Assembly (NCBI GenBank): GCA_914767715.1
Contig: OU612065.1
Coordinates: 6,200,001-6,264,000 of the forward strand
Direction: 5' to 3'
From: Membranipora membranacea
Taxonomy: Eukaryota > Bryozoa > Gymnolaemata > Cheilostomatida > Membraniporidae
Length of the DNA stretch: 64,000 nucleotides
Of the stretch, positions 20,901-61,655 are shown piece after piece. How positions within the stretch are numbered: the first letter of the stretch is position 1; each line of letters opens with the position of its first letter. Below the pieces are notes generated by a model that saw only the letters and a program-made list of their open reading frames with translations, had not been told where the DNA came from and ran no database searches. A program made the position numbers and the translations under genes.

Positions 20901-23900
20901 CTCACCGTACACGAGCCAATTTTCCAGTCACTCCAGCCTCCATCAACTGTACAGTTTCAATGTAATGAACACTAACAAAATTTATATAAATGGCACCATT
21001 TATGAATTGGCCTTGAGATTATCTGTTGCTTGTTGGCTACATATTTTCATCGGGCCCATCCACATACACAGTATTTCAATTCAATGCTTGTCAGAATAAT
21101 GCACCAAAGATCTAGAGAATAAGGAGCTTCCAAATAAATGGAACTGCAGAATTTTTAGCTCTACCCACTGACCTGGACAAGGGTTTGTACTACATGGTGT
21201 GGCTTCCATTGCATCACCAGGACATTCTTTTCCACCATTTTTTGGCTCTGGATTGTTGCACCGTCTCTGACGTGTAACATTTCCCCCTCCACAGGTAACC
21301 GGGCATTTACTATACTTACTCCATGGCCCCCATCCACCATCAACTGATAAAACAAAAAAATGCAGTTTGGGTATTTGAATTCTGAATTATTGATCAAATA
21401 TTAACACTGACGTCAAATTGCATAATAGGACTGATAGCAGCTTGAGTTGTTTACAAATATGAGGTTCCTCTCTTGTATTATTATTGTTGTTTGTTGTGGT
21501 TCCCATGTACAGTCTGATCAATGCTAAACTGGTAGCAGACATCTGAAAGCTACCACTACTCTCTCATTGATTGATAAAAAAAAATCACTTTTTCAACTTG
21601 TGAGTTGGCCAATCCTCTAGTAAATGTTAATCCTGACAGTCCCTGTCTTATTATTGTCCATCAGATTAGAAAGCTGTGGGCAGTTAAGCTTCACCACTCA
21701 CTCTTCACAAGGCTGTGGATGAAGGGAGTTGCCATAACAAGCTACCAGTAGACTGCTGTTACAAATGATTACAGCTTTGTTCGTTGGATATATATTCCAT
21801 CTGAAAATGGCTCAGTTTGATTGAATAAACAGGGACACGGTGTTATAGCTTGTGATTTGTTTATAATTATGGGGTGATGTAATTGTTACCTTGTTACCGC
21901 ATTTAATGCCAGACTACGAGAAGGGAGGTTACAATTTGATCAAATATCACTAACCAATTTGAACACTCTTTATCATGAATAATAGTGCAACAATTGTAAA
22001 GATTTACCTCAAATAGTATGAACCAGTGCATGTTCTCAAGATCTTAGGGGGTCAAAACAGGACAATATAAGTAGCTATATGGTCACAAACTCATCGGATC
22101 AATCATTACGTCATTGTTTTAGGTAATCCTCGCTGTATTGCATATGTGCTGTATTGCATATGTGTGCGTGTTCACACAAACTGGAATTGAGATGTGAGTA
22201 TGGGGTGCAGTGGAGGCTTTATGATGGGTACAACACCCCACAACATGTAAGAACCTTGGCTTGGCGAACCAACCTAAAGATAATCTCATCTTCTATAAAC
22301 ATATAAATTATGTTTCCATATTTAAGGCCGTTTCATATGTATCCATTGAACCCTGAAGCCCTTAGCCTTTGTCTCCTTTCCAAGTTTTGCAGAGACTGCG
22401 TGGCAAAGCTGGGGATCCGTCATGGGTGAACAAGCCCCAGGCGGAAAGCACCATATCATCAATATATGTAGGCGAGTGCAACTAGTCATTTGAAGGTGGA
22501 ATATTTTCTAAGTTTCCATGACAATTCAGTAATTGATGGGTTTCTATTATTTAGGGTGGGGTATTTGGATGGCTAGAAGCCAGCGGAGAGTTTCATCATA
22601 GTTCAATTACTCATTAGGATATCAGGAGAAGAAGGCTACAGTAGACTTGTTGACAGGACCCACCACACAGGTAAGAGAGCATCCAACATTACTGTAACAT
22701 CCTGGACTCAAACCTTGTAAGCCTCATCTCATGATTTTACCCACATATAATATTTTCACAATATTATATTTATTCCCCGAAAAAAGAAAGAGGGAATAAA
22801 GCAGAGCTTGCATATGATGAGATGATTTTTCTGGGAAAAGAATAAAGGTTCTGGGTAAATTGATTTCTAGAAATTAATACTGAGGGTACTTAGCCTGGGT
22901 AAGTTACCCCAAGACAGCCTGCCCAGGCTAGAGGGTACTGATGTATGTTTATATATTAACATATTGAGGTTTTCGTGTCAGTTTCACAACAAAAAACTAA
23001 AACAATCTTTTGACCTCATAACTCGAAGGAAAAGGAAACTTAATCAGATTTGGAATGACTCACATGACTCGATATCTTATAAATAGAAATTGGGTTAGAT
23101 TACAGTTGTGTCTTTTAACATTGTAGTTATCAGTAGCTATGACAAGGTTAGACTGAGAAAAAGAATCTCTCTGCTCCCCTTTAGCCATTATCAAGTCAAG
23201 TTGTCGTCACATAATTTTACTGCTGCAATAGATGATCTTTCTCAGTAACATTAATATTACTTCTTTGTTTTAGGATGCCTCGGATGAATAAAACAGTTAT
23301 TGCCAAGAGGCAAACCAACTTGTCATGGGCTATCTGCTCTACACTGATGTGCATCTGCTTCCCCATCGGATTAATTGCCCTTTTTGTGGCTCTGAAATCT
23401 AAGAGAGCATGGAAAGATGATCGCCCTGAGTCAGCTGGAGACCTGGCAGATATGGCAAAGACCATCGCTCTCATCTCCATCCTTTTCAGCATGATCATTT
23501 TATGTATCTTCGTGGCTCTGATTGCATCCGGATATTTCTACCAATTTCTTGAATACATCGGAGTTATGAAAAAAAGTGAAGTGGCTAAGCTAATGCAGGA
23601 ACAAGGAGAGACAAAGGTGGAAGAGATTCCAGACGACATCGATACAGCTACAGATGAACCAGAGTACTACTATGACTATGACTATGAGACAGTCACTATC
23701 AAGGTTCCCGGAAACGTCGCCGACCAGTAAACCTGCTCATCTTCTGATTATTATCCATTGCTCAATATATCGGACCAGTTTACTAAAGGATTAGGATTAC
23801 AATATCAGTGATGATCTAATATGGTGGACATGATTATCACGCACATCCTAGAACTAGGAGGATTTCAGGTCACGCTCATAGAAACAATTCAGTGAACTCA

Positions 23901-26900
23901 CTGGACCCATCAAAAAGAGAAAAACATTCAACAGGATCATAGGGTTGTGACAGAAGTATGTGGTTTTGTAGGTTGTGGTTCAAATTAGTGGAATCTTATT
24001 TCATTTTTTCGACATCTCTGATTTGTGCCATGCTGATCTACTCTGCTCTACTTTCCCATAGTGTTGTGACCGATACATATTATTTTTAATGAAATTATCC
24101 TATTTATATCACTGACATTTACTTTTTTTATTAGGTATGATTTTCCCACAATAATAGTGTCAAGGAATATATTGCCTAAAGAACTCTTATATCCTTGGTT
24201 CCTGTACAGCCCAGCTGGGGCCAAGTCCCTGAGGGATAGTCTGATGGAGAGTAAGCAAGGCTGCTGTCAAAACAACGTTTAAGTTTTGTGGTTTTGCCTC
24301 TTTTTTCAATTAGTTACAGAGAGCACTGAGGTATCATATAAAATATTAGTGATAGGGAGCTCATATTCACATATTCATATGTGAATCAATAATAAGGTAG
24401 GTGACAATGTTCAATGTTGATGGCACGTAATACAGCTTCGCTGTAGAGCTACATTTATGCCCACAGGCTCCTGTTTCTCCAGATTGTTACCTGGACTACC
24501 ATATTGATATGTCTTTGAGTAGCCAATGTTATAAAAGTGATTTAAGTGATTTGGTATCTTGTATGGGTTAGCGCAGTTACTGCGTCAAATTATAGGTTTG
24601 GGAGAAGATTAAGTGATATCAAAGATGTTGTGTGCTGATACAAATGTAAGGGAGTGTGAGAAGTTCAAACCCGATACCTGAGGGTTTATTTCTTTTGTGA
24701 CAATATTTTCCCACTGATACTGGGATACCTGATAACTGAATGACAGGTTATAACTTTAATTTGCGACTTTCCATGGGATTGTAAGTCTAGTTATGGGATG
24801 AAGCAAGGTATGCATCAGCAGTAGCCCTCTTTCATCCTCCCTTGACTGTGTTATTTCATGCATAGGATCTCGACTTACCCGGACACACCGTTCTCAGGAC
24901 ACATATAGAGGTAGTTTCTTCCACTTCGTTATTACAATCGCTAGACAGGCATAGTTTTTGCCTCCTTTTTGTTCCGATACCACAAGATACTGAGCATTCA
25001 GTCCAAGGTCCCCATTCTGTCCAGCCTGTTTGCCCGGCTCTTGTAACAAACAGATCTTTTGTCATTACTGCAGGCGTTACATCCATTGCCTCGGTAGTTT
25101 TCAGTGCGGCTGTGGTAAGTTTTTTCTTACCGTTTGACTTTTTGTATGTACAAATCAGACAGCGGTATTTTTTCCCTCTCCTTCCTAACTGAGTCTAAAG
25201 ATAAAGATAAGGATGATAAGTCTTAGCATGCCTCATACCTAGCCTGGGCAGGCTGTCGGGGCTACCCAGGCTACCTCATAACCCTTCCCTTTTTCGATCA
25301 GTATCACTGCTTCTGACAATGAAAGGTGGACGCACATGACAAAAATGGTGTACAACACACAACCAAAGCTTATGCGCCAATCAGACTTATTGCACCAAAG
25401 CCAATAGTCAGACAGAGCTGTTCAAAGCAGCGGCTAGAAGAGGCGCAGACTCGGTAAGCTGGAAACTGTTCTGAGATTGTAAGCACAGATAATGCTGCAT
25501 ATGTAGAAGCGCAGAAAAACATGCTTGAAACTCTGAACCCACTAGACTGGCTGGCAAGGGTGAATTACTCCAATTTAAAAATATAAGCTGTGGCACAATG
25601 AGCATGTGAGTCAATGAGCGTAAATGCATAGCTTCTCCTAATTGCATTGTACTACATACATCAGTACCATGGGACCATGCATTATACATGATTCTGTTTT
25701 GCCTTCTGACCCTGACAATCTAGACTAATTAACCAAACTGCTCAGATTTATTACTGACTGATTATGTTGTGATCAAGTATAGTTAGAGACATCTCTAATT
25801 CTAACTCATTGTTATGATCACCAGTAGATTCACATTTTGTCATACCTAGTTGCCGAGACAAAAGCATGCACGCAGGCACATTTTTTTACCAAATTAAAAT
25901 TCCAATGGATATAATTTATTTAAAGTGATTACAAGTCTGCTAGCAGTTGGCCTCAATCATAGAGTTAACTCTATGGCCTCAATTCATTGTATAGATCAGA
26001 ACAAATAATTTAACCCCTGCTCAACTTCAGAGAGGAAAAACATATTCACCAATAATTGTATGTCAAATTTACCTACCCATTCATAATCTTGTCTCTACAA
26101 CACGCAGTATTGACAGACCATCTAAATAAATGTCGGATGGATGGTAGTGAAATGTGTACCCTAAGCCGAAACTATATCCGTTAACAATATTTTTTTCTCT
26201 TTTGTATTGTATTTTGAAAGCGTGTTCGAGACAAAGTCATTTTCCCAATTAGAAGGAAGGGAAAACATGGAACTTGATAGTTTTAACGGTAGCATGTAGG
26301 AGTCAAGACAAGTATATTATTCAAAACTTGTTTAGTATAGCAGTGCATCACTGAGTCTGATATCTGGGTTCCAAAACAGAATACATTTTTACTTATTTGG
26401 TTTCGAAACTGGCCTTTGTTCTAGTACGAAACGTGTATCTAAAAAGCTACAAAGTAAGTTGCGAGTAAATTGGTAAGCTCACCAGCTCTTGGGCATAACC
26501 AACACCTCCATTCTTACAGCAGCCTCTCGGACTCTTGAAGGACTTCTCTGTGCCACCATTCTTCGTAGACTTGTTGATTAATCCACGACAGATTGGGCCC
26601 TCTTTGTCCAGGGCATTGTGAATCTTTTTGAAGCAGTATATTTCTTTTGCATCTACAAGTCATCGAGTCAAGGTTTCAGATTTACAAACCATACTTGTTC
26701 TTTCAGATATGTTATTTATGGAATATGCTAAAACATCACATTAATTCCTGGCGCCCAAATTTCAGATTTTATTTTATTCCATAGAAAAGACAAAGCTCTG
26801 TGATGATATGCCAGTTGTGAATGAAGTCACAAGATTTGGGAAAAATGAATAAGTAACTTACCAATGAGAAGGGGAAGCGTGAAATATGACAGCATACATA

Positions 26901-26928
26901 TGGCGATCCATCTAGAATGTCTATCCAT
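17991..26928 (-). CDS. CFP-like: Properdin-like secreted protein: TSR0-like domain plus six TSP1 repeats
   Basis: Nine minus-strand exons: 26862-26928, 26483-26652, 24879-25194, 21173-21343, 20779-20946, 20309-20482, 19457-19639, 19020-19145 and 17991-18142. They total 1527 nt (508 aa; human properdin 469 aa) and every phase closes. Residues 1-22 are a signal peptide. Residues 23-94 form a Cys domain with IYCF, ICRGL, RGCCKNG and a CLIC (CxxC), the pattern of the properdin N-terminal TSR0. Six TSP1 repeats follow, starting WTEWGPW (137), WGPWSKY, WSDWKIG, WSLWSSW, WSPWSAW and WCAWGEY; five of the six are encoded by one phase 1-1 exon each. The tail is acidic (GGYEDDEDC). Properdin stabilises the alternative-pathway C3 convertase by binding C3b/Bb. 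Function here is inferred from architecture; another TSP1 protein that converged on six repeats is the alternative. Confidence 0.75.
22132..22163 (+). repeat. Perfect 16-bp tandem duplication
   Basis: GCTGTATTGCATATGT occurs twice head to tail with no spacer. It lies in intron 3 of the properdin-like gene, about 0.5 kb upstream of the putative 5' UTR exon of the nested dispanin gene. Confidence 0.8.
22600..22670 (+). promoter_or_regulatory. Putative 5' UTR exon of the dispanin-like gene (5' edge approximate)
   Basis: A good donor (CACACAG|GTAAGAG) at 22670/22671 precedes the acceptor at 23272-23273 (TTTGTTTTAG) that abuts the start codon of the dispanin-like gene. The transcription start cannot be located, so the 5' edge is arbitrary. 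Inference from splice signals only. Confidence 0.4.
22891..22930. mobile_element. 40-bp palindromic micro-MITE with perfect 9-bp target duplication
   Basis: The element starts TAGCCTGGG and ends CCCAGGCTA. It is flanked on the left (22882-22890) and right (22931-22939) by the identical 9-mer GAGGGTACT. It is an approximate reverse complement of the copy at 25240-25273, sharing TAGCCTGGGCAGGCTGTC read from its right end. It lies in the intron upstream of the dispanin coding exon. Confidence 0.8.
23275..23730 (+). CDS. Dispanin/CD225 (IFITM-like) two-pass membrane protein
   Basis: A single coding exon of 151 aa begins at ATG 23275, right after an acceptor (TTTGTTTTAG). Residues 15-42 form the first membrane segment (NLSWAICSTLMCICFPIGLI), followed by ALFVALKSKRAW, a polar loop with a GDLADM block, and a second membrane segment (ALISILFSMIILCIFVALIA). 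The order (membrane segment with paired Cys and Pro-x-Gly, basic A-x-K loop, G-D-x-x-x-A, second membrane segment) is that of the CD225/dispanin family, which includes IFITM, SynDIG and PRRT2-type proteins that act on membranes and vesicles. The C-terminal tail is acidic and Tyr-rich (EYYYDYDYETV). It sits entirely inside an intron of the properdin-like gene on the other strand. Specific function is unknown. Confidence 0.8.
   Translation: MPRMNKTVIAKRQTNLSWAICSTLMCICFPIGLIALFVALKSKRAWKDDRPESAGDLADMAKTIALISILFSMIILCIFVALIASGYFYQFLEYIGVMKKSEVAKLMQEQGETKVEEIPDDIDTATDEPEYYYDYDYETVTIKVPGNVADQ
25240..25273. mobile_element. 34-bp palindromic micro-MITE with near-perfect 9-bp target duplication
   Basis: TAGCCTGGGCAGGCTGTC opens the element and CTACCCAGGCTA closes it. 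The flanks are CCTCATACC (25231-25239) and CCTCATAAC (25274-25282), 8 of 9 identical. It lies in intron 2 of the properdin-like gene, about 45 bp from the acceptor of exon 3, and is inverted relative to the copy at 22891. Confidence 0.75.
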
Positions 26929-29063
26929 TTGTGTAGTTCACTGATTTACAATAATTATGATTTCTAAAATCTATGTCAGCTCTGTTTGATCGACTACCTA
27001 AAGTGTATGAAAGCTGATGCTAAGATTCACGCTTAAGCTGCTGACAGCATTTAAGTAATCCTATAAATTCCACACAACATATTCATACCTAAAATGCAGG
27101 CATTGCCTTCTTTAAGCCCGTCTAAGTATAAACAATGTCGTAATGAGCTCTTGAATCTGCAGATTTTACACCTTGGTATGTATCATACTAGACTTGAACA
27201 AACAGATCTGACTAGCGACACGTAGACCCCTAGCTCCCCTAAATTAATGGAGATAGTGTAGAGATTGTAGATAGATTCCCATGTGAATTCCTGTACTAGT
27301 TGCGCTTAATCCCAAGATTTTACTTCTGAGAGAGTAAATGCCACAGCGCCTGCTAATAAATAGATGCCTTGACTACTTGGCACTTGCTAGTTAATGGAAC
27401 AAGCGAAGATGATTCAATAATTGAATTCACATTCAGCTAGTCGGTTTGTAACCAATTAATTCATCTTTGATCATCAGCAGTTGTGAGGGCATAAAAAACC
27501 ATATCTAGAGTGGGATTGATGATGTTTGTAAAAACAAAGAGACAGTATATTGAATGTGTGTCAAGGCATCAATCACTGTGAAACACTTGTTCAAACTGTT
27601 TTCTGCTTTTGACATCTGCTCGCTGTTTTTCTCATCAATATGTTATGTCAAATTATTTTTCTACCTCTGAAAGAAAACAAGTGCACTTATGGTTTTTCGA
27701 TTACACACAAGATCAGGTATCGTAAAACACCTAGTATCCAGCAGAAAGTGATTAATCTGTTAGCACTGTAGTGCCTGCCAGTCACGGGGTTTGGGGTTTG
27801 GGGTAAGAACTGGCATGAACCTTGAATTAGGCAATCTGGCAGCTCTCATTACAAATTATGAGCTTCTGAAAATTTATGCATAACAATAATCAAATCCCAT
27901 TTACAAAACTCTATCCAATTAAAATGGCCCTCTCGAAGGTGATATACAGTACAACCATATTATAAACATCCATGAGAAATTTATAAAACGATTGAGTATG
28001 TATCAGCCAACAAAATTGATACCAATTTGAAGATATTAGACCATATCAACATTCGTATATAATCTCTACAATTTACTCATCCAAGTTCGGAAAAGTTCAT
28101 CTCAAATATTCTTAATTATCTAATATTTGTTTTGGATTTATTTTATGTGCTCAAAATGTGGTTGCAAGTCGTATGCAAGCTGTGTTTGAAATTTGAGTGA
28201 AGAATTTGTCTAATATAAAGGTGATTGACTGATAGCTATGCTTGCCTAGCACCCAAAACACAGGTACCTGGGTAGGCAATAAGAAGCAAAACTGAAATAG
28301 TATTGATCTGCAGGGAATTAAAAAGAAAAACATACAACCTGGTACCTCCGTGATGACCCCAGGCTCAGTTATTCCCAAACATGCGAACTTGTCTGCTCAG
28401 TTGGAAATGAACATTAGGCTTCTCCGTAATTACAATCACTCTCTGACCTCATATTTTGTTTGTTTTACCGCAATGAGCTCCCTTAGTAAAGATGTGAAGA
28501 TTTCCAACATTGTAAGTTGCGCTATCATGATAAGAGAGGAGATAATTCTCCTCTTTAAGAAAATAAATATTGATGCAGTTCTGTTTGAGATGTAAGAGTT
28601 TACCTAGAACATATTTGATCCAGTTTGCCTGCATTGTAGTTGCTCTCCTTCAACGACGTGACCAGTGGAGGGCAAGCAACTCCGAATGTCAGCAAATGGA
28701 TTTAACTTGGTCTAGAGTTTACCTCTTGCCTTTCCCAACATCCTTCACAAAAAATTCAGAAAACCTCAATACCTCAACGCCCTTTAGTCGAGTGAGCATT
28801 TAGACAGAAAATACAACACTTGTAATGCAATGCTCAAAATACCAAAACCTTGCTGAATCTGCTTATGCTTACCTTGTAATGATGTGTAGTGTACATATCA
28901 ACACACGTTGAATAATGCATGGATGGATGTATAAATGCATTTTATTTTTATAAATAAGGCTGTCATGGGTGTTTTTTACCAAAAAGAGTAGGTGTATAAT
29001 TTTTTTTTACAAAAAAACTAAATTTTAATCAGGAATTGATATTGTCTGCTCTTGTGCCTCACT
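26929..29063. other. Intergenic region between properdin-like gene and GPCR
   Basis: No supportable exon was found on either strand. It includes the promoter side of the properdin-like gene (26.9-28 kb) and the 3' flank of the GPCR gene. A G-rich tract with three GGGG runs separated by TTT lies at 27786-27803. Short open stretches at 28350-28800 have no recognisable domain. Confidence 0.5.
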
Positions 29064-30551
29064 TCAGACTCTATAAACACTCATTCTAATCGCACTTGAT
29101 ATCTCGCTTATCCTTAATCTGGAATTGTGGTAAACTTTACGAATGTTTTTTATTTTACCATTCTTACCACAACAAGCATTAAAGATTCCAGATGACATCA
29201 TGTAAATAAGTGGATTCATAATGGTACAAATATATGTAAGAAATTTTAGTACATTAATTATTTCAATAGTATCTAGAAGGCTTTCTGGTACTTTAAAAGT
29301 CAGCTGGAGCTTATATATAAGATATGGTCCCCACAAACAAATGTACACGGCGACAAGGAGTATGATGATTATAGTGTGACGTCTACGAGCAGCCTCCAAC
29401 CGACGGGCAGTTTGTGAGACCACGCCCTCTAGCTGAGCCATGATCCTACGAGTGAATAGTTTGCGGAGTATGAGACCATAACAGATGATCATTATGATGG
29501 AAGGTAGAAGATAGCCGATGACAAAATATACTACTTGGATTGCATTATAGTGTGTTTCAGTCACCATCATTTTACAGGCCTTTACTGTTATTGGAACCAA
29601 ATTTTCATCTAGCTGATAGACTTGTCTTTTCTCATTTTTCCAAACTGATTGGTTTGGTAGAAATCGTAGTTCATTTCTTTCATAGTTGAAGACTGAATAG
29701 TTGTACTTTTTTAATCCTTCCTCATATTCCAGGGGGATCCTTGTGAAAACGCCATCGTGCACCGATATTGTAAGTGCTAACAACCAAACTACAATCAGCG
29801 ACCACATAGTTGAGTTGTGTCTACAGCAAACATTATTTGCTCTGTCCAGGCGGGAGCGCCTATTCGCAGACAGTACAATTGTTCTGTACCTATTTGAGAA
29901 AGAGATTATCAGTGAAAATGGATATTATGATGAGCTGACATTGTTTTCCATGACCTTATTTTTTTTCTCACCAAGGTGTGTAACTGAAAATGAATATTCA
30001 TTCTTTGATTTATTTAGTTAACAATGGTGAGGTGAACATAGTTAATTTTAAATGCTAAAATCATCTTACCTGTCCACAGAAAGAGCAGTAAGTGTAAACA
30101 TACTACTCAGTACAGAGACCGACTGAATATAGCCTGAGAGGTGACAGCTCCAGGTGTTCAGTGTTATGTCGCTGATTATTGTCCATTCGTAGCTCGTGTA
30201 TATGCGGTAGATGTTGAACGGAATAACAAGAAATGAAATAAGAAAGTCTGACACTGCCAATGATATGATGAAATCATCTGTCTTTGGACGCCGATTTCTG
30301 CTTTCAGCATTGCACCTTGCAGCTACGATGTAAGAGATGATGCTAAAATTCAGCACCACAGATAGTGCTATCAAAATTGAAAAACTTACGATGTAGAACT
30401 CCTTCTGAGTCTCTGATGGAGGAATTTCATTGAAGGTGAGAAACGGGGAAAGGAGGTCCCGAGTTAATTCAGCACATGACCAAAAATTCATTGAATTATT
30501 CAATATATTTTCTATACTGTTCGTTGTTAGGTTACAAATTATTTGCTCCAT
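29064..30551 (-). CDS. Class A (rhodopsin-like) G-protein-coupled receptor, two exons
   Basis: Exons 30070-30551 and 29064-29889 join in frame to 435 aa. Seven membrane segments are visible at about 53-77, 93-115, 136-158, 189-206, 276-301, 332-355 and 374-397. Hallmarks: SLAVSD in TM2, Cys136 at the start of TM3, DRY at 160-162, WGP in TM6, and NPLIY at 386-390 in TM7, followed by a basic helix 8 with a Cys-Cys pair. The N-terminus carries N-glycosylation sites (NLT, NNS) and no signal peptide. Extracellular loop 2 is very long (about 70 residues, with Cys266 to pair with Cys136). The only coding intron splits the Arg codon of DRY. Ligand and subfamily are not evident; receptors with a DRY-splitting intron recur across bilaterian and cnidarian genomes. 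Confidence 0.88.
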
Positions 30552-33371
30552 GAAAATAATTCTGAGCAATCAGTTTTTGTTTTCACCAAACGAGTTTTTG
30601 ACTGAACTAAATAGCAAACAGCTTTGAACATGAATGACATAAAGATAACTTACTTCTACAAGATGTAATTTGATCTGCTTATTACATGTGAAGAGCCCTA
30701 TAAGTGGAACCCTTTTTCTTTGATTTTTCAGTTTTATTGGCTCTGAAGTATACATGTTACGTATATATAATGGCTTCCTACACTTCATTATTCACTGGGA
30801 TAATCTTCAGGTACTTGGTGCCATCTTATCGCTGATATTGAGATTACAAAACATTTGCGTCACTGGCAAACTTGAAAATGTTATGAGAGAGCGAAAGAGT
30901 AACCTGTCACAGCTTGGTAACAGGTATTGACTGTTTTTTTCAGCTCTGCCGGGTTTCTGATAGATGCTCTAGGTTCAACGTGAAGTTAATCAGGAAGTTA
31001 ATTATAAAACTCCATCGTGAAGTTAATTATAAAATATTACAGATATACAAAAAACATCCAAAAAAACGCATTGAACACAAGCTCATGGTCATAAAGATTC
31101 AGTTACAAATTATCCCCATACTTATAATATAAAAATACAACTCAAAGTGCGGAACACCACCTTAGGTTTATCATCAATCACAAAGGTGCAGCTGCCCGTT
31201 CTTGCAACATGATAACAAATAACAGACTTAGCACACTTTTACACATACAGGGAATGGGGAGGATATGCAGGTTATGATTAGTTTATTTTCACAAGAGCTG
31301 TGTAGATAGAAATATGAAGCAAATAATTGACTCATTGACTTATCGTTTGTGACACAACAAATGGATGTCACGTTTGTCATCTCCCAAGTTGGGCATGATA
31401 CTATAGCACATTTTCAACAGCCTAAGTTGGAAATTGATGATCATAGCATTCATTTGTTGCGTCATCTAAATTATAAGCAAATGACATTCTTATATTTGTT
31501 TCATAATTCTACCCTACCCTGCTCGTATGAGTATACATCTGCCTGCTGTATTTAAAAATCAAGTTTGGTACATCGAAGGCACCATTGGACAGAAAATTGT
31601 ATTGTTAGCGGTATAACAACAGTGAACTTTGTGATGGTAATGGTACTATTATCAATTTGCTGCCCAGAGTCAATACATTTTTGTGGATAAATCGATCAAT
31701 TTCAATTGGATTATGGGTTTTAAAGTTGAAATAGATCATCATCATTAAAGCAATGAACTAAAGTTCATTGATTAAAGTGATCACAATTATTTGCTGAATC
31801 TATGGCATTTCCAAACTAGTCAAAACTCAATCAAAATTAGTTGGACTGGACTGTGGGCTTCAAATCATGGATAAATGTAACACCATGGCTACTGCCATAA
31901 TTCAATTTGGTTAAATCATCCACAATTAAGTGCATCAATGTATCATAACAATGCTTATGGCAATTATAGTGTCCTGTCTATGCTAATTATTACCAAGTCC
32001 GGGATCATCTATTATCTTCTCCTTGATAAAAAGGAGATAACTTTATAACATAGTTTATTCATTTTTAGGAGAGATCATGGAAAGTTAGACTAAAATCATC
32101 AAATTTACAACTCTGGTGAATAATCACTATACTAAACATAGGAGATCTGATGATAATCCCTCGTTCACAGGCTAACTAAGATGTCATAGAGGAGAGAAAA
32201 TCAAAACTAGCTTATTTATGCCCAAAACCCACTGTTTTTCTTAGTTCCTATACATTCGGTGTTCTTCAGCCTCTATCAATCCGTCTAGTCACTATATTAC
32301 ACATGGCATGTGGCACATACCGCAGAAGCTTGTGATTGTGGTGGGATAATTTACTTACCTGTCACTCTCCTGTCCATGCCAATAACTGAGTGAGAGGAAG
32401 AATTCCAACAACAATCAATGAATTCTTTTATTTTTCAATGCACTTTTTAAAATCATTTGATATCTCACCAAGTGGATGACCAGTCAATGTCAGTAAATAT
32501 ATTAACAAAAGTTGACATACCTTCATAACCACTTGCAAATCAAGGAAGTTAGAGTATTTGAATGATCAAAGCAAAGGAATGGAAGAACACAGGAATGAGG
32601 AACAGGGCAGATGGCATGACAGTTCCTTGTTCCAAGTCATCACATTTCATGCTGGGTCTTTTTTCCTCCACTTTACAGGGACTCTGCTTCTCATCAAAGT
32701 GTCTTTACCTGTGTTTTTGTTTTAATCATATAGGTAATGTTTGTCACTGTGTTAATTTACCACTCGAAGCCCGAGGTGTTGACGAAGTGAATTGATTGAG
32801 CCCTCACAATATTTATATACGTAATGAAATCTCATGTATTCAAGTTAACCCGATGAGTCTCTCTTCCAAGTAGAGTCTATGAATAAAGCTGCTATGCACA
32901 CAAGCCACTCTCCCTGAGAAAAGTAATGATGTAATCCCCTTATCGGAGGATCATATTGTGCTATATGTTGGCTTAAAGATCTTTCCCAAAGACAAAGACA
33001 GACAAAGAGCAGTAGCTTTTTGCTTCAAACTAGTAGCATTTGTAGTAGTTTTGATTTGCTGAGTTTGTTAATAGTATTTCATTAACTTGTCAAAGCGTTT
33101 ACATGGTCAACTTTTCAATCCTTTATGCTGATCATCAAAGCTAGGGCAAAGGCAAAGCTACTTCCATGTAATCATGTAGGCCTAGTTGAGATAATGGATA
33201 GTTTTTGTTTTAATTGACTTGATGTGCTTTATCCTTTTATCACATCAATTACATCAACTACTGTATAACATTATGTTACATTCCGAATTCTATTTAAGGG
33301 AGAGAATCGAGACAAACAAATCACTTTATTGCAGCAATTCTGCCTAAGGCAGAAATAGTTGTCAGGTTGTC
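30552..33371. other. Intergenic region between GPCR and CUL2
   Basis: 2.8 kb with no supportable coding exon. It holds the 5' flanks of both divergent genes (GPCR minus, CUL2 plus). An acceptor-like TGATTGCTCAG (minus strand, about 30562-30572) just upstream of the GPCR start codon suggests a spliced 5' UTR there. A short direct repeat containing GAAGTTAATTATAAAA occurs twice around 30990-31036. Confidence 0.45.
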
Positions 33372-40053
<6,682 letters not shown>

Positions 40054-42645: not shown

Positions 42646-42674
42646 TTTGATCTGGAAAACGTAGATGAGCTAAG

Positions 42675-47883: not shown

Positions 47884-49581
47884 CTCATATTTATACTAGA
47901 GACAGTCCTCTCACGCAGCGGAGGGACCGGTAGTCTGTGGAGATTGAGGCCATGCATTTTGCTGTGCCACAAGATTTCCCCATACAGATTGGCTGAATGG
48001 TCACTCACATATACATGATGAAGAGAGTGAGAAGGTTTCTTCCAGTATGCTCTAAATAGATAACATATCCTACTATTCACCCACAAACCGCCCTGTAGTA
48101 TGGTAGTATCTCAGTAGTCAGTCTCGTCAATCATACATCCATGTTTGTCTGAAGATATCACATGTACGCCAAATCAACAGCCCATACCAGGACAAAACAG
48201 ACATTATGCATGTTATGCTTTGTACCACCCTACACCAATATCATATCTGCAGACAGACTATCCAGTGCAATTCTTTTTCTAATTAATTCTTTGCTGTATT
48301 CATGGACATACTAAGGATTAAAAATTTGGTCCATCATTTCTTACTAAGTCTTTTTGCAACACAATTTCAGGATGGTTGCCTGTCTGCTCGCTTTTTTTTC
48401 ACATTAGCACTGCAATGCATCTCAATCATGACTATCTGTAATGTACAGTTTTGCAATCTGTTATCATTACTTGGCTGCTGTTGATGTTTAAGTCAAACAC
48501 GCTTTATCCAAAATTGACTTCTAAATATTAGGGCACTACTTAGCTATCATCTCTATGCTTATAATTATTTTGATGCCGTATGTCTATTCAGTGTTGAGTT
48601 GTTGGACACATTAGCCATTACCCATTAAAAATGGTTGCTTTTTTCATGTATTGATAAATGATTTTGTATGGTTTGGAATTTTAAGAGCTGTATCCAGGAG
48701 TTTTTAAGCATTCCTGGTTTGTTGGGTTGTTGCTCAAGCTCAAAAATAAACTTTTGAGAGAAAAGTTTTCACAAAATATATTTATTTAAGTGCTCAAACT
48801 GTGTTGAAGGTAGCGGTATTTCATTATCATGCAGATTCCCATCATGATAGGTAGGTGGGAATGCGGTTGAAATGCCACCATCAACCAGGGCAGAAAGACA
48901 CTTCCCCACAACAGACAGACTTGATTGCTCTTCATACCTAGACGATAGTTGACCCTGGGCAACTGACTATGTTTTCAAGTTGATTTTGAAAAGTAAGAAT
49001 AGTAGTATGTAGCATTTCCAAAGTAAAAACTAGCATGAGATACTAGCCATATTGCTCACATGTGATTTTTCAATTTTAATACCATCAAATGCTATCCACC
49101 ATGGAAGCGGGGAGTTGGGACCCAACAGTGATATATTCAGGGAACTTTGATGCAAAACAACGACTTGTCCTTTTTATGAGGTCTGTATTTCCTCTAAATT
49201 CCCCCTCATTGGTACTGCTTTATGTGCAAAACACTATGCTTACCACTTCTCAAACAAAACTGGTAGGGCTCTATTTAAATGACAAATAGCATTTCCTGTC
49301 AGCAGGGAGCTGACAGGAAAATCTATGGGAAAATCCCGTAGTACCTTATACAGTAGGAGTTGTCCTCACACTAAATCCAATTTCGAGAGTAATGTCTGAA
49401 AAATAGTGTTGCTCATTTACCTAGAACATTCGCGGTTATCAATCAAATTCCGATAATATTCAGTGATCTGTATTTCCGGACAATGACTGTAAGGTTCTTT
49501 CTCTTTGGAAAATAGCGACTAAGTTATCCCCTGGCCCGTTGCACGTCTTCTCTCTCGAATCTCACTTACTAAAGGAATAAA
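47884..49581. other. 3' UTR of LRRFIP-like gene and FKBP upstream region
   Basis: No supportable exon. An AATAAA at 48745-48750 is a candidate poly(A) signal for the LRRFIP-like transcript (about 860 nt after its stop). The last few hundred bases hold the FKBP promoter and 5' UTR; no TATA box is evident. Confidence 0.5.
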
Positions 49582-50655: not shown

Positions 50656-51008
50656 GACATTGTCTTTCATACGAGTACATTTGAATGAGTCTTCATAACC
50701 TTTCTTTTACTAATCTTATATTGCTGCTTGACCTCATGCTGATCTTGAACCGCTCTAATCAGGTTTATCTGTAAACGTTCTCGTCACTTATTTAACTAAA
50801 ATATTTTCTACCTATGACTCTTTTACATTCAGTTGCAATGTGCTGTAGTTGCATCAAAAGTTTTATTTTGATTGCAGTAGAAAAAAGTTTTACATGACCA
50901 CCAACAAACCATAGTATGTGATAGTTTGAACAAAATTTGCTATAGTTCTTTTCTTTTAAGATTGTCTCGTCATAGACTTGATAAGTTATAAAAAAAAATT
51001 GGTGTAGT
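50656..51008. other. Convergent 3' UTRs of FKBP1A and TXNDC11-like gene
   Basis: No coding sequence. TTTATT at 50862-50867 (AATAAA on the minus strand) is a candidate poly(A) signal for the TXNDC11-like gene, about 142 nt past its stop. No AATAAA was found here for FKBP1A. Confidence 0.5.
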
Positions 51009-54000: not shown

Positions 54001-57000
54001 GCAAGAATCAATTCATGTAGCCTGAGTATTTTCACAAGGAAGTTGATGTGACAACTAAAGGTAAAATTTTATAATTCAGGGGCACACATTAGGTACTTAG
54101 ATAAGTTTCACTCTCCCATTCAGAGCCACACAAGCTAATGACATGAGCTTGATGGCAGTGTGCTATTAGTAGCCAACAGTCCAAGTTAAGGCACCTAAAA
54201 TAACCAACTTTTTAAAATCAATTCGGGTTATGCCATCAAACAAATTTTTCTAGCTTATCTCTCATCGATAAGCTGAAACAAAGTATTTTTAAAGTGAGTT
54301 TTGATATCATAAGTACAAGAGCCCTGGCCTGCATAGATGCCCAGCTCCATGACCCCTTACTCATAGAAACTGAAGAACCCGGTATTTATTATTTCTGCGC
54401 TCATGTTAGTTGACTAAGCGCCGGGTCGGATACTGATAATATTGGCTTACCTGACACACAGAGTTACGATCAGCTACGGTATAACAGCATTGATCAATAT
54501 CACTGTCATCCAGCTCCGACCACTGCTGCTTATTGTGGCACATAATACACAGCGGATTGTCGTAGGGGTTCCTTGACTGTCTATTTTTAATTGATCCAAG
54601 AATCATCTGATTTATCTTTTGTTTGAGTTGATGCTCTGTAGTGTTACATGTGTAGTAGTCTAGCACAACCTCTCTCAACTACAAAATGAATTATTGAAAT
54701 GCATCCAACCTGACAATCAAAAACCGATTACACTGGGCATGGATGTGCATGGTTTGTTATAAGGTAAGACGCTAAACTGACAACAGAAGTATAGAACACC
54801 TGATATGTCATAATACTTGGTAGACCTTGGTCTTCCTGCCAAACTTACAAGATTGACATGTGTGTTGTGTTGTGAGCAGGCATCATATTCTGTCAGTAAG
54901 AGAACAGTAGGTCCTGACTGTAACGTCCGATATAACGCTGTACTCTTCCTTCCATTAGGGAACTTCCATTTCACAGCAGGCTACAATAAAAATATATTTG
55001 ACCGCTAAAAATCAAAATAAAAGACTGTGTTTTTTCTCATAATTCCAAAGAATAAAACAGTGGTTCTCAGGAAAAAGTGATTGATATTAAAATCAATAAT
55101 TCACAGCCTTTGCTCTCATATACTCATATATGCAAAAGCACATTGCTTACCTGAAGTTTATTTTTGTTGACCCACTTGTTGATTGCAGAAGAAGTAAAGT
55201 TACTCTCAGATGGATATGGCTGCAAAAGAAAGGCAATACATTCAGATGGAGCGGTATCGCAAACAAGACCGAGAATTATTGTGCTTAAACCAGTAAAAAA
55301 AGTCGAGTACATTGTAAATTGAGCCAATAAGATGAGATCATACGAAGCAGAGTTTCTATGATGCTGATGGAATCCTTTGGTAGCAACGTTGCCACATTCA
55401 TACAAGATGATGACATTGTATTGTGAGAATGTCATTACAAAATATCAAAATACCTACCAGATTATCTGTGATGCTCCTCACTAGCAGCAGAGGTTTAACA
55501 TCATTCATCTCAAACTCAGAAGCAAACTTATCATCTGACAAGAGACCGAACCGTACAGGTTGGATAAAATCTGTAAATTAACAACAATTTCCTAGTATTT
55601 TTAAACAAATTTCTCGTTAATCTTAAACAACTACTGCAGACAAATGGAAGCAGGGAGTATGGGACAAATTCCATGATGGGAGTGAATTTAGTTCTTATCA
55701 TAAGTTCAGAAGTTATGCCCTTATGGACATTAACACGACAACTCCAAATAACAGAACATTTTGTGTGATAATTTAGTTTCAGAATAAGTAACATATATGG
55801 ACTTCTGATCAGGTGAGTTTTCACATGGCTCATATTCACATTCACTCATTGCAGTAGCTGCAAAGAATTTCATTGGCTCAACCATGAAGCATGATCACTC
55901 AAGGACATCTATCAGAGGGTGACCCAAAGAGGTACTAGTAGAGATTTCTCATAAAAAGGATTCATTTGATTGGATAACATTGGCCAATCTGAGCTGTGTA
56001 AATATGAATCCTGCAACTTATTTATCCCGTATTTACAGGTCAGGCACTTTGACTTCTAAATTAGGTTTCAGACTTAATTCTAGTTTTCATGGAGTGCAAT
56101 TTGATTGTGGCCCAAAGGATATGTTTTACAACAGTTTACTAATTATTCTCACCTGCTTCTATGGAACGGAGGGAGGCATAATAAAACTGCTGGAAACGAG
56201 CCCCTGGTTCGTGACTAGACAAGTTGAAGTATCCAACAAGGGATGACTGAAAATATATGGAAAGAAATATTTCATTCTGACAAGCAAATGGGTTAAATAA
56301 ATAAGGAAATTCAGGTTTTATGTCCATAAAATATCCATCTTGAACAATCTACAATTGAAATGTCACTTAGAAACGAGTTTTGTTTCCAGGATTGATGAAC
56401 ACTTACCTCTTGAGAGGAGACAAAGCTGATGAGCTGGCTGGAGTTTGAAATATGAGTAATCGGATTTAGTAATGACTGGATGAAGCGCACCAAATAATTT
56501 GCTTTTTCAATACCTATAAAAACGAACAGATCATTAGGATACCAGAGAAGGTGTACATGTCAGCCTTACAAAAACTTCGCACAATTAGAGTGAAGGTAAG
56601 TAAAATTTTGTTGGTAAGTAGGAAAAGTCAAGTAGAACAGTCAATACACACTGTAATATACATGCTATCTAGCCGTGTCACGCAGATACGGGTTTTGGTT
56701 TTTTTAGTTTGTACACAACAAACCGAAAGAGCCAAAACCTGTGGCGCATGACAAGGCTACATGCTATCATTAACAAACCATTACCATGTGGTTCAAATCT
56801 CCTCAACTAGTCAATATTCACACAATGCTTCTTCCATGCTCCGAGATGGCTTGATCCTGCCTGATGCAGACATCACAGCAGCAGAATTAACATAATTTGT
56901 ATCTCAGCGCACATATTGCATTGACATTTTGTTTACAAAGCTCGGCTAGGCCTCATTGAATGATCTGAACTAACGTACAACATTTGTGAGATCTAAACTT

Positions 57001-58717
57001 GTCTACACATCAAATCGTCTAACTACATAATGGTATTTTCAATACTGCAACAAACAGAGATTCATTTTCAGACGAAGATAATATGATACATACCTGTGTA
57101 TGTGAATCCAAGGTCCATACCAGAGGCGTAGACATAGAACGATGGGTAACTATAAAACTTATATTTATCCTTACATTGGCTGTTAGGATGCCAACAATTG
57201 ATGGCAACAAAAGGAACCTGCAAAAAATAACACCTAGGAACTGTTATAGAGAACATGATTTAGAACGGAATGATGACCTGAGATCATGTAGAAAAGTATA
57301 TATCCTTTACACAATGAAGAAAGGTAAGAAAACTTATTGACAGATTGAATATTTTGCGGCCAATACTTTGTTGTGTACAGTTGTTATTTTTAGTAGAGCT
57401 ATTCAGGGGGGTCTTTCAATTAGAAACAGCCAAAATTGCAATCATATCACTCACTCAGTGAGTGAGTGATACCTGCTAGGGCTCTCGCTTTCAGATCACT
57501 CACTCAATGATGGAACTATATACATTCTGAGTGAGTGATTTGGGAGTGATTTTGTCTAATTGAAAGACCAAGTGAGTGATAATTTTGAGTGATGTGATAG
57601 TGATAACTTGCTTTAGTAATACATCGCTCTTTCTAATTGAAAGACCCCCCTGCTTCAGCAAAATTTAGACAAAAAACTATGTTGATTATCTGAGTGATTT
57701 GACCTGGAAGGCGCGCATACCACAGACATTGCGTCACATTTTGAACTGTTACCCTAGATCTACTCATGAAACAAACAGGATGTGATTTGAGTAGACTAGT
57801 CATATACTAGTTATACATATGAAGATTCTAACTCACCCTGGGATACATGATACGAGCTGCTTCTGCAAATTCATCTCTAGCTAGCATACACCTGGTAGAC
57901 CATGAGGCATAATACATCACAAACACATAGCCATACTCCTCCATGGCTTGAGCGGCGTACGCAAGCTCTCCTCTATACGAGTCAAACACAAAACTACTGG
58001 CAGGAAAGAATGGCTGTGGAGGGTGAGCCACCTGATATACTGTGTCAGGCCCGTCTGATGGTACACTGTTGGAAAATAGTTTTAAATTTTCATAGTAAAG
58101 CATCATAATCTCTCAAATCTGATGTGTATAAAATCTTATAATCATGTCTATAAGCAAATTAGAGTAGCATAACCCCAATTTGGCCACGTTCTACCGGCAT
58201 GTGCCAACTTGACACTAGCATTCACTAGTAACTACAACATCGCCATGAAGCTGTACAAATCAAAATATGATGGACTCATATATACCAGTGACTAGAACTG
58301 TTGAAACTGAAAGATCGCTCTCCTTCAAATTATGAGCTGAAATGAAGTTTACATAACCAGGTATTACCTTGTGACTGAAGAAGCTTGGGATCCATCCTTC
58401 GTTAATCCCAGCTGAGTTGATAAGGTAGGAATCAATGATACTGCCACATATACCAGGGTTATTGAAGTGAGCATTTTAGGTACTGTAAACAAGTTAGTGC
58501 AAAAATCATTACTCTCTGAAGGTAATTGGCTTTGCTCCTTTTGTTGACCTAAGCTAGTGGAATTCTCTGTAGTCTCCAGTTCATCTGTGTGCGTGTTTGA
58601 GTCGGACGATCTGCTTTCCGTGGAACTAGACTCACTGCATGATGAGTATTCCTCTTCTGTCAGGTCACAAACCTCATGTGCAGTGACCTTACTTGCAGAG
58701 GGAGTTATTTTGTTCAT
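51009..58717 (-). CDS. TXNDC11: TXNDC11-like ER thioredoxin-domain protein, complete
   Basis: Fifteen minus-strand exons: 58368-58717, 57837-58065, 57094-57217, 56407-56513, 56153-56246, 55458-55570, 55151-55219, 54849-54980, 54451-54678, 53297-53440, 52805-53129, 52485-52633, 51968-52080, 51671-51748 and 51009-51393. They total 2640 nt (879 aa) and all phases close. An acidic, Ser-rich N-terminus is followed by a membrane segment at about 82-100. The first thioredoxin-like domain has YYASWSTRC in place of a CxxC, then VPFVAINCW. A Cys-rich middle part follows. A second thioredoxin domain carries an intact WCLHC site (Cys699 and Cys702), then DVSAETLPWKYSVSQVPT, and a helical C-terminal region follows. 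This order is that of TXNDC11 (EFP1), an ER membrane protein tied to DUOX maturation and ER-associated degradation. A 90-bp micro-element and a foldback lie in its introns. Confidence 0.86.
56670..56759. mobile_element. 90-bp palindromic MITE with perfect 9-bp target duplication
   Basis: Starts TAGCCGTGTCACGC and ends GCGCATGACAAGGCTA. Left and right flanks are the identical 9-mer CATGCTATC (56661-56669 and 56760-56768). The terminal repeats run about 28 bp each way, with GGTTTTGG and CCAAAACC inside, and the core is again symmetrical (TTTGT...ACAAA). It lies in the intron between exons 3 and 4 of the TXNDC11-like gene. It is the longest copy of the TAGCC micro-element family here. Confidence 0.85.
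57404..57652. mobile_element. Foldback/MITE with 23-bp perfect terminal inverted repeats
   Basis: CAGGGGGGTCTTTCAATTAG plus AAA at 57404-57426 is the exact reverse complement of 57630-57652. The interior is built from repeated ATCACTCACT/AGTGAGTGAT units in both orientations, so most of the 249 bp can fold. It lies in intron 2 of the TXNDC11-like gene. The CAGGGG end resembles hAT-type termini, but an 8-bp target duplication is not visible. Confidence 0.75.
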
Positions 58718-59381
58718 GAGAGATCGCCAAGAACATAGCTGGTAGCATCAGTGTGAGCAGCAGCTCAAAGGTTCTACTACAAATAAAGCAAAATATGAAA
58801 CTGATGAATATCACAAGACTAGGTTATTTCCGAAATGAACAGACTCCCAACATTGGCAGTGTCGAAGAGTAAGTATGCGAGTTCTACTACCTATTAACTG
58901 TAAGTGTGTCACATACACTGTATGTGACACGCCTAGGTGCATGACTCTACATGAAGTTAGGCACTGTATATTGCACTGTCATGGTTGCCATGGTCTTAAT
59001 CTGATTAATTGTTATAATCTTCCGCATTTACTTCCATTTTTTGCACATTTAATTACCATCTAAATGCGGAGGTTGGCCATCAAAATAATGACGTATCATC
59101 CCACCTGTTTCTATTTTTACGACCTATTTATACAAGTCAGTATAAAGAACAGTGGTTTTTGATCTGAAGATTCAGTTACAACTTGGCGTTGCAATTTATC
59201 AGTTGCCTGGGGCATTTGCCCCAGGGTGTAGTTCCGTAATAAAATCATCAAACTGCCGAAAAACTGCATTCAGTATTATAAAGAACTCTGCCAGCAGTGA
59301 ACTGTCGTGATCTTTCTCGATCCGACAAGTGTTACAGAGGAAGCGAGGGATTTCTGTCTCCCCTTTCTCTGAGACGATTCT
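58718..59381. other. Upstream region of the TXNDC11-like gene
   Basis: Presumed promoter and 5' UTR of the minus-strand TXNDC11-like gene. It contains a perfect 25-bp palindrome at 58906-58930 and a small TGGGGCATTTGCCCCA hairpin near 59207. No coding exon is recognised. Confidence 0.45.
58906..58930. repeat. Perfect 12-bp-arm palindrome about 190 bp upstream of TXNDC11-like start
   Basis: GTGTCACATACA, one C, then the exact reverse complement. Its position just upstream of a gene makes either a symmetrical protein-binding site or a small insertion possible; nothing in the sequence decides between them. Confidence 0.7.
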
Positions 59382-59659
59382 TTGTTGTCAATGATCAGTT
59401 GGGTATTCATAGGTAGGGCCATGGTGACTCTACTCTATAAGATGATCAACAATCTCATTGGTGTACAGATAGCTCTTCGTCAGTCAGCTGTCCACCCTGG
59501 GAAGTATACTCAGCTCCATTGTAGAACAGTGGCTTTCCAGAAATCGTATTCCCTTACACGATCGTCCTGTGGAACTCCTTGCCACCAAGCGTGACGTCTG
59601 TGGTTCCTGTGGACGCCTTCAGAACTGCTGCAGCTGGCGTCCTGACCAAAGCCTACTAA
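59382..59659 (+). pseudogene. 3' remnant of a non-LTR retrotransposon (LINE) reverse-transcriptase ORF
   Basis: Conceptual translation gives TLLYKMINNLIGVQI, then after a frameshift near 59545 gives FPYTIVLWNSLPPSV and continues to VDAFRTAAAGVLTKAY and a TAA at 59657-59659. The LYKxxNNL ... FPxTIxxWNSLPxxV ... DAF pattern is the conserved C-terminal tail of CR1/Jockey-type LINE ORF2 proteins. Only this tail is present and it is frameshifted, so the copy is dead. Confidence 0.7.
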
Positions 59660-60099
59660 TCTCTACACTCCTCTCTTTTCTTCCAGCACAAGCACCCTGC
59701 ACTTGCATTATTGTTACAATGTATTCACAGAAACGCACAAGCAACACAGATGAGTGGAGATGAGACCACAGACTTTTTCCACTCACAGATCAACGTAAGA
59801 AAGACCCTACCAACTTTTCAGCAGGTCAATTTTGAAAAGGCCCTAAAATTTCAAGAGTCATAATGAATATACATTAACGCCATGTATTTTTATCATTAAC
59901 AGGTACACAAAGAGGTCGATAGTGCCATTGATGGGAGGCCACCATACCAACTTCCGGCGGGCAAGCGCTATGGCGTCCCTCCCACGCGGCCCTATCACTG
60001 AAAAACCCATGATACAGCCCTGTCAATGATGATGGAGCTGTTGTACTAAAATAGTGTCCGGTAAATGGCCATCCGCCACGCATCTCTGTAAAAGGGCCA

Positions 60100-60490
60100 T
60101 CCGCTCATGACAAATACTAATCCGGCAGTGCTAACTGGCCATCCATTTTACCTTGTATCAATCTCAATATGTGACTGTCACAAACCCATCCGCATGCCTA
60201 TTAAGTCGGATGTCCGAGTGGCATTTGGTGGTTGCCGAATAGGCATCCGGTTAGCACTCGGGCATCCGGATGGGTTTGTTGACCTGATGATGATTGTCTC
60301 CAACCCATCCTCCTCTGTTACAAAGCCATCCGCCTCCGTCAAAATTGTGTCCGGACGCGTTTATTGCAACCGGATGCCTATTTGGCATCCGCCGGTTGTC
60401 CGATTGCCAACCGGATGCCCGTAGGGCAACCAGCGGATGCCACGCGGACATTCGGCGGTTGTCCGGGCATCCGGATGGGTTCTTAGCGCA
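60100..60490. repeat. GC-rich cluster of short direct and inverted GGCATCCGG-type repeats
   Basis: GCATCCGG/CCGGATGC and CCATCCGC/GCGGATGG motifs recur more than ten times in both orientations, for example CAAACCCATCCGC at 60181 facing CATCCGGATGGGTTTG near 60265. ATAGGCATCCGGTT at about 60241 faces AACCGGATGCCTAT at about 60370. The block is markedly more GC-rich than the rest of the window. It may be a degenerate satellite-like array or a compound foldback element. Open frames through it are by-products of the repeats. Confidence 0.6.
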
Positions 60491-61318
60491 GTAGGAGCAA
60501 CGCATGAATATGATGATGATTATTATAACAAATATAAAACATAATAAATATGTGACAATGAATAGAGAATTAGTAAATAACAATTACGTCAGTGTTTAGA
60601 TTTCACAGACAGGTAGTTTAAGCAAGGAGATTGGAAGCCTTCCATTCTCTCTGTGTGGTTAAATTAATAAAATAATTAAGTTCATACATCATTATCATTT
60701 AATTTATGAACTCCCTCTCAGCAATGAACTCTCATGCAATGAACTCCCTCTTGTTCTCAGTCTCTCCCCCTCACTTTATTTATGTGAAGCTGTGCAAGCA
60801 AGGAGTCCTTGGTGCAAGGAAGCCTTGGCAAAGGATAGCCTGGGCCGGCTCTACAAGCAGCATTTAAATGTTTTATCATTCAGGCTTTAAAGAAACCCTG
60901 AATGAACTATTATTTACTTATCACAATAATGTAGTAGTGCTTATTCATCATTCAGGATTTTTTGCCAACCACTAGTTCAACCTTGAACTTTATCAAATCA
61001 TTATAATGTGTAAAGTGGGTGGGTTGTTAGCAAAGGATTATTATGTGGGATTTGTTTTCCCACTCACCTTGTAATAACATGGAAGGATGACTAACATTTG
61101 CCTACACCAATTAAAGCGCTTCGTTTACTAAAAATATATGACCATATATATCAGTATTATGAGTGATTGAGTGATGATATAGATATTGCTATCAGCTTTC
61201 CTTTACTCCTTGAATATGGAGTATCAATGCAAAATGCATTCTGCAATTATACGTCCTTAAGAGGAATTTTTGAAAAAGTATTTGCGCTCATTATCTTTTT
61301 TAGACCATATGTCTAACC

Positions 61319-61352
61319 TAGCCTGGGCACCCCCGCCACCCTGCCAAGACTA
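61319..61352. mobile_element. 34-bp micro-MITE, one end decayed, near-perfect 9-bp target duplication
   Basis: Starts TAGCCTGGGCA and ends CCAAGACTA, a decayed form of CCCAGGCTA. Its length equals that of the copy at 25240. Flanks are TGTCTAACC (61310-61318) and TGACTAACC (61353-61361), 8 of 9 identical. Intergenic. Confidence 0.6.
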
Positions 61353-61655
61353 TGACTAACCCCTAAAATAGTAGATGCAATGCTGTATTAACTGATAAAA
61401 GCAGGCGTAGAGTAGAGGAAAGGGAGAGCGAGAGAGAATTATGCCCAATAAATTTTTGTCGGCTCCATGCAACGGGTATGCGCTTTCCATTTTGAATCAC
61501 AAGGTCAATTCACAATATTATTATCAAGCACATAAACACTGTGATTTGAAATCAAGGCTGATAATACAAACTGCTGAAACATCAAGATAATTAAGAGGCC
61601 CAACTTCCAATAAACTTCCCAAAAAAGCTGCATCTATAAAGCTAACAGGCAGGCA

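Follow-up and report, generated by a model that had tools for sequence, protein, structure and literature searches.

Short inverted-ended insertions with 9-bp target duplications in a bryozoan genome, probably minimal non-autonomous DNA transposons

The window analyzed is a 64,000-nucleotide stretch of the Membranipora membranacea genome (contig OU612065.1, positions 6,200,001 to 6,264,000), the genes of which look animal. A protein search with an acyltransferase exon retrieved 35 proteins, of which those without a species name reached 93% identity and the two with one, from Pinctada and Limulus, 55% and 52%. Direct re-reading of its letters confirmed five short insertions at the coordinates and with the 9-bp flanks reported in a first-pass annotation. 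In window order, these elements are 40, 34, 32, 90 and 34 bp long, and their flanks, all read on the plus strand, agree at 9, 8, 8, 9 and 8 of nine positions. The first, a subfamily A element in minus orientation (22891–22930), lies between identical copies of GAGGGTACT (22882–22890 and 22931–22939), and the second, a plus-strand member of the same subfamily (25240–25273), between CCTCATACC (25231–25239) and CCTCATAAC (25274–25282). Two subfamily B elements of ambiguous strand follow, the shorter one (38741–38772) bordered by ACTACCGAG (38732–38740) and ACTCCCGAG (38773–38781), the longer one (56670–56759), which is palindromic nearly end to end, by two copies of CATGCTATC (56661–56669 and 56760–56768). 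The last element belongs to subfamily A, again in minus orientation (61319–61352), and is enclosed by TGTCTAACC (61310–61318) and TGACTAACC (61353–61361).

An intronic location had been proposed for four of the five elements. This holds for 38741–38772, which is situated between two cullin-2-like exon pieces in an intron read by eye as 38556–38842, with borders 185 and 70 bp outside the element, whereas the other four are not placed in a closed gene model. Among the latter, 22891–22930 stops 345 bp short of the ATG (23275, assigned by eye) of a CD225-domain exon and 25240–25273 lies upstream of a thrombospondin-1 (TSP_1) domain encoded on the minus strand.

All elements bear inverted terminal repeats, as expected for a non-autonomous TIR DNA transposon. 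The common ends TAGCC...GGCTA ascribed to the whole group are found in four of them, while the plus-strand right end of 61319–61352 reads GACTA, with one mismatch. The boundaries run TA..TA in all five, at a duplicated unit of 9 bp; since TA is self-complementary, any inverted repeat starting with TA will also run TA..TA. Compared with shuffled sequences, DNA folding gave z values of –2.0 (22891), –3.3 (25240), –4.0 (38741) and –6.5 (56670), whereas 61319, whose right end carries the mismatch, folds no better than shuffles (z of 0.55). Three of the five duplications contain a mismatch, indicating that the insertions are not fresh and that later deletion is possible.

Exact TAGCC..GGCTA pairs of 20–200 bp occur seven times in the window, and four of these are flanked by 9-bp repeats with at most one mismatch (null mean 0.0025, maximum 1 in 400 trials). 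When one mismatch per end is permitted, 1303 pairs are obtained, including five with 9-bp flanks (null mean 0.275, maximum 3 in 400). Hence, the claim that five such flanks are beyond chance is well founded. Among the same 1303 pairs, neither 8-bp nor 10-bp flanks were found, and 6-bp flanks accompany five pairs, under the null mean of 8.7. The duplication thus has a defined length of 9 bp, as is characteristic of the fixed-length target sites of non-autonomous TIR DNA transposons, and it agrees with the 8–10 bp, mostly 9-bp, duplications of Mutator-like elements. A blind scan of the whole window for all inverted 5-mer pairs up to 200 bp apart with 9-bp flanks matching at 8 or more positions returned eight places, half of them TAGCC. 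In ten first-order Markov sequences, the same scan gave between zero and six places each (mean 1.8), none with TAGCC, and the four other places in the window were accordingly taken as chance. Other hairpins were also considered as possible sister families. The scan used for this purpose (12-bp arms with at most one mismatch, 24–160 bp apart) recovered just one of the five elements, and among the 58 hairpins listed only 25240 carries an 8–12 bp duplication at its ends; hairpin 31748–31773 has a 7-bp repeat shifted by 3.

The three subfamily A elements, 22891, 25240 and 61319, are alike in the interior and not only at the ends, although they occupy unrelated sites. With 7 bp fixed per end, the better orientation exceeds all 2000 interior shuffles in each of the three pairs. 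After trimming 9 bp per end, the similarity of 25240 to 22891 was matched by none of 5000 window stretches and none of 5000 shuffles, and that of 25240 to 61319 by no window stretch and one shuffle (5000 each), whereas the pair 22891/61319 is weak at this trimming, its score being reached by 51 window stretches and 24 shuffles out of 5000 each. Moreover, 25240–25273 and 61319–61352 are equal in length and register and identical at 28 of 34 positions in an ungapped alignment. In line with this, the form of about 34 bp seems, judging from the sequence comparison, to have spread as a unit and not to have been whittled down copy by copy. The idea that hardly anything apart from the ends is mobile is thereby strengthened, as the body of 25240 beyond its ends is common to both 22891 and 61319. 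In subfamily B, the 32-bp element 38741 is similar to the two ends of the 90-bp element 56670 put together, in one orientation, with none of 2000 shuffles being as good. Related copies at different sites are thus present, three in subfamily A and, with weaker evidence, two in subfamily B.

Taking these observations on five copies from one window together, the insertions are probably non-autonomous inverted-repeat elements of the cut-and-paste type, moved in trans by a transposase that duplicates 9 bp and is most likely Mutator-like. Little would be left of such a DNA transposon other than two end sites of about 16 bp lying directly side by side, and most copies indeed barely exceed the length of two ends. 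A transposase encoded elsewhere would bind both inverted ends and excise the element, and its insertion at a 9-bp staggered cut would create the 9-bp duplication. Subfamily A may have been dispersed as a ready-made unit of 34–40 bp, and subfamily B may comprise a palindrome of 90 bp and a shorter version of 32 bp, close to the summed ends of the palindrome. Since looping is not feasible in a duplex of only 32–40 bp, the ends are probably paired through transposase subunits that touch on one short duplex, or with the end of a second element. More tentatively, the 34-bp form could be a self-sufficient mobile unit consisting of two back-to-back transposase sites, its ends paired on an unloopable duplex; this is possible, though we would not go as far as calling it probable. 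Set against the favored explanation is the report that the excision complex of Paramecium largely fails at these sizes, around 38 bp (PMC3464196; PMC9942856).

Neither the 24 ORFs of at least 110 aa in the window, compared with Pfam, nor the reading frames scanned in part of it gave a match to a transposase, and an autonomous partner with the same ends was not found within the window. Likewise, no element of 200–3000 bp with TAGCC-like ends and a perfect 9-bp duplication is present in the window. Seven lone ends (2026, 10949, 23150, 40187, 51033, 53479 and 60836) could not be convincingly paired within 20 kb, each of the eight matches listed being mismatched in both end and flank. One subfamily A and one subfamily B pattern were without matches in viral contigs, as was one subfamily A pattern in prokaryote genome contigs, which says little because these collections are not animal. 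A literature search covering titles and abstract openings, with few subscription papers and without Repbase, returned no animal transposons of 30–40 bp.

A Mutator-like (MULE) origin is plausible, the 9-bp duplication being the sole evidence, and MULEs with TAGCC ends are not known to us. As the assignment hangs on duplication length alone, the same minimal element might instead depend on a transposase from a different superfamily (Merlin, hAT, P, IS3EU-like or an undescribed one), an alternative overlapping the favored explanation save for the MULE label and considered rather unlikely. The absence of 8-bp flanks among the 1303 pairs, together with 6-bp flanks at less than the null mean, speaks against it. 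hAT and P elements usually produce 8-bp duplications. For Merlin 8 bp, for IS3EU usually 6 bp and for MuDR/IS256 4–10 bp are given, while the TA..TA element ends are also a feature of IS3EU families (PMC10045372), which is in favor of such an origin. Duplications of 9 bp are documented for animal Mutator-like elements, with Muta1 of the mosquito Aedes aegypti showing 8–9 bp without apparent sequence preference (PMC5225508) and Tm1, a Mutator/Foldback family of the nematode Meloidogyne, most commonly 9 bp (PMC3169594).

Alternatively, longer elements with 9-bp duplications could each have lost their middle in place, by abortive gap repair after excision or by slippage between the inverted ends, in which case the short forms themselves would never have transposed. 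Cut-and-paste elements often undergo internal deletion, 38741 resembles both ends of 56670 put together, and the mismatches in three duplications allow time enough for such decay. However, 25240 and 61319 sit at unrelated sites and yet agree in length and register, for which loss in place would need identical breakpoints twice, and the lack of 200–3000 bp copies with a perfect 9-bp duplication in the window likewise disagrees with this scenario, which we regard as unlikely. That outer ends and duplications are intact in all five copies also speaks against it, albeit as a weak point because the search targeted such copies. Far less probable still, and nearly refuted, is an origin as chance palindromes or from a non-transposon process, such as template switching at hairpins, with similar flanks. 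Short hairpins without 8–12 bp duplications do exist in the window (e.g., 6958–6995, 37181–37217 and 49291–49321), but common ends, a single duplication length and bodies shared across separate sites are at odds with such an origin, as are the four and five flanked pairs observed versus the null expectations.

For bacterial cut-and-paste transposons, a minimum size of 64–70 bp is quoted (PMC3464196). If the 34-bp elements indeed transpose as such, the minimum for DNA transposons would fall well below this value, 34 bp would be close to the smallest size that a transposon can have, and one would need to explain how ends pair when the DNA does not loop. The elements also provide a counterpart to the limits on size deduced in Paramecium. 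Such elements may also fill animal introns unseen, as the repeat finder checked begins at 50 bp; annotation using this limit would overlook shorter insertions with 9-bp duplications in the introns of animals.

Several known systems share features with these insertions. Introners are likewise short, non-autonomous and located in genes, some having inverted ends and 3–9 bp duplications, but they drive intron gain (PMC9860276), whereas 38741–38772 is not itself a spliced intron and lies inside a larger one. Paramecium IESs, which are handled by a domesticated transposase, are also tens of bp long with inverted ends beginning with TA. Their minimum is 26 bp, with a main peak at 26–28 bp and a largely absent second peak (about 38 bp), a length at which, according to the authors, direct contact is no longer possible and looping not yet (PMC3464196; PMC9942856). 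In contrast, the copies found here at 32–40 bp fall into just this class and possess 9-bp duplications, which the source passages on IESs do not describe. With the Mutator-like elements Muta1 and Tm1, the insertions have 9-bp duplications and inverted ends in common. Inverted ends exceed 100 bp in 12 of 14 Aedes MULE families and are shorter than 60 bp in two (PMC5225508), and MITE-like copies of Tm1 are typically below 0.5 kb with composite ends (PMC3169594), whereas here the whole element measures 32–90 bp without a linked transposase, thus lacking the long inverted ends that are typical of, but not required for, MULEs. With MITEs in the broad sense, they share the lack of coding capacity, inverted ends, target duplications and related copies elsewhere. 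Compared with the 50–800 nt range of detectMITE (PMC4726161), four of the five elements are too short at 32–40 bp, the limit of 50 bp being a detector setting rather than biology. For this reason, the elements are termed MITE-like rather than MITEs, representing a variant of extreme size.

All five insertions of the TAGCC family, named here by their start coordinates, were found where the first-pass annotation had placed them and with the 9-bp flanks it had described. The copies at 22891-22930 (40 bp), 25240-25273 (34 bp), 38741-38772 (32 bp) and 56670-56759 (90 bp) bear the ends TAGCC..GGCTA, and the one at 61319-61352 (34 bp) has the ends TAGCC..GACTA. Flanking 9-mers are identical at 9/9 positions for 22891 and 56670 and at 8/9 for the other three. 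As had also been claimed, these flanks are beyond chance, with counts far over the null means: of the 7 pairs measuring 20-200 bp with exact TAGCC and GGCTA ends, 4 carry 9-bp flanks that differ at no more than one position (null mean 0.0025), as do 5 of 1303 pairs when one mismatch per end is permitted (null mean 0.275). Among the latter pairs, duplications of 8 or 10 bp were absent (0 and 0), and 6-bp and 7-bp flanks occurred in 5 and 2 pairs, fewer than the 8.7 and 2.8 expected on average under the null. The 9-bp peak was reproduced in a second flank-length scan of the window. Moreover, a blind scan for all inverted 5-mer pairs that lie within 200 bp of each other and carry nearly identical 9-bp flanks returned 8 places, four of them TAGCC, while ten Markov controls gave 0-6 places per sequence, TAGCC in none. 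As the duplication length is a single one (9 bp), it marks a staggered transposase cut.

The proposed assignment to Mutator-like elements (MULEs) is plausible. The 9-bp duplication fits such elements better than families with 8- or 6-bp duplications, as the consulted portions of the sources give 8-9 bp for Muta1 from Aedes aegypti (PMC5225508) and most commonly 9 bp for the Mutator/Foldback family Tm1 from Meloidogyne (PMC3169594). A transposase match was found neither among 24 window ORFs of at least 110 aa (10 and 14 in two sets) nor in the longer frames scanned, covering part of the window, and a longer copy of the family was not found within the window. By analogy in duplication length, a MULE origin is likely.

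The exons of the window (acyltransferase, PP2C phosphatase, rhodopsin-type receptor, CD225, thrombospondin-1 and cullin) are animal-like. Copy 38741 is flanked by two exon pieces whose best match is cullin-2, sits in an intron read by eye as 38556-38842, and ends 70 bp ahead of the last base of the acceptor AG. The end of 22891 is 345 bp upstream of the ATG of the CD225 exon, and since an acceptor-like TTTTAG precedes this exon, a location in a 5' UTR intron is possible. Copy 25240 is on the upstream side of the thrombospondin-1 domain (minus strand) and 56670 some 4.6 kb off, on the upstream side, from a weak thioredoxin match (minus strand, below the curated cut-off); for 61319, no gene was assignable from the frames scanned there. 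Family patterns gave 0 matches in viral and prokaryote contigs, as expected for an animal element.

Other repeats accompany the family. An inverted repeat at 1-319 (145-bp arms, 90% complementary, 29 nt between) touches the window edge and resembles an element of foldback or MITE type. A tRNA-like stretch at 61656-61725 (GGGTGGCGTAGTGGTTAGGAT ... GGTTCGAATCCCGGTCACTACCC) was judged by eye to be the probable head of a SINE; ARAGORN detected no tRNA anywhere in the window, and Rfam was likewise without a match. At 60080-60480, a short GGATGCC/GGCATCC-type motif is clustered in direct and inverted copies forming several interlocking palindromes, and a lone TAGCCTGGGCCGGCT at 60836-60850 resembles the left end of subfamily A (22891, 25240 and 61319), with no partner or duplication found. 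Isolated near-perfect hairpins of 31-38 bp (6958-6995, 37181-37217 and 49291-49321) were rejected as kin, being unrelated by eye and devoid of 8-12 bp flanking duplications.

Folding was near-complete for 56670 (z -6.5), above shuffles for 25240 and 38741 (z -3.3 and -4.0), weakly so for 22891 (z -2.0) and not beyond shuffles for 61319 (z 0.55). Subfamily A shares a common orientation with 22891 and 61319 on the minus and 25240 on the plus strand. When 7 bp per end were held fixed and the interior was shuffled 2000 times (20 pairings tried in all), no shuffle reached the better-orientation score of any of the three pairs. After removing 9 bp per end, the score of 25240 against 22891 was reached by 0/5000 window stretches and 0/5000 shuffles and that of 25240 against 61319 by 0/5000 and 1/5000, respectively, while 22891 versus 61319 was weak (51/5000 and 24/5000). 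Hence, these copies are related past their ends, strongly for two of three pairs; 25240 and 61319 have the same length with an ungapped identity of 28/34, and 22891 differs by small internal indels.

As two equal, alignable 34-bp bodies occupy unrelated target sites, movement of the 34-bp form itself is the simplest explanation, albeit from few copies, and this putative unit transposition is supported by the body homology. Separate loss of the middle in every copy after insertion is rather unlikely, as independent losses would require coinciding breakpoints, though subfamily B (38741 and 56670) is equally compatible with such loss and with unit transposition: the 32-bp copy resembles the two ends of the 90-bp copy joined side by side (matched by 0/2000 interior shuffles for one orientation and by 0.7% for the other). 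A 34-bp element moving as a unit would consist solely of two sites, each about 16 bp long, and as so short a DNA should not loop, its ends would need to be paired by transposase subunits in contact or with a partner end from another copy.

The observation is confirmed and has strong statistical support, and the elements represent a variant, extreme in size, of non-autonomous inverted-repeat transposons. Searches of an open-access library retrieved no title or abstract beginning that reports animal transposons of 30-40 bp, and one detector, as described in the part of its publication consulted, covers 50-800 nt (PMC4726161), excluding four of the five elements. According to excerpts of the ciliate literature, the quoted in vivo minimum for bacterial cut-and-paste transposons is 64-70 bp. 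Sequences excised in Paramecium are no shorter than 26 bp and peak mainly at 26-28 bp; their second size peak is nearly empty, its lengths being, as the authors suggest, too great for direct contact and too small for looping (PMC3464196). A further source puts this second peak around 38 bp and the first one of Blepharisma at 65 bp (PMC9942856). The gap in Paramecium warns that one transposase-derived complex cannot make good use of such lengths. The 32-40 bp copies fall within the range of this near-empty peak, which makes them remarkable.
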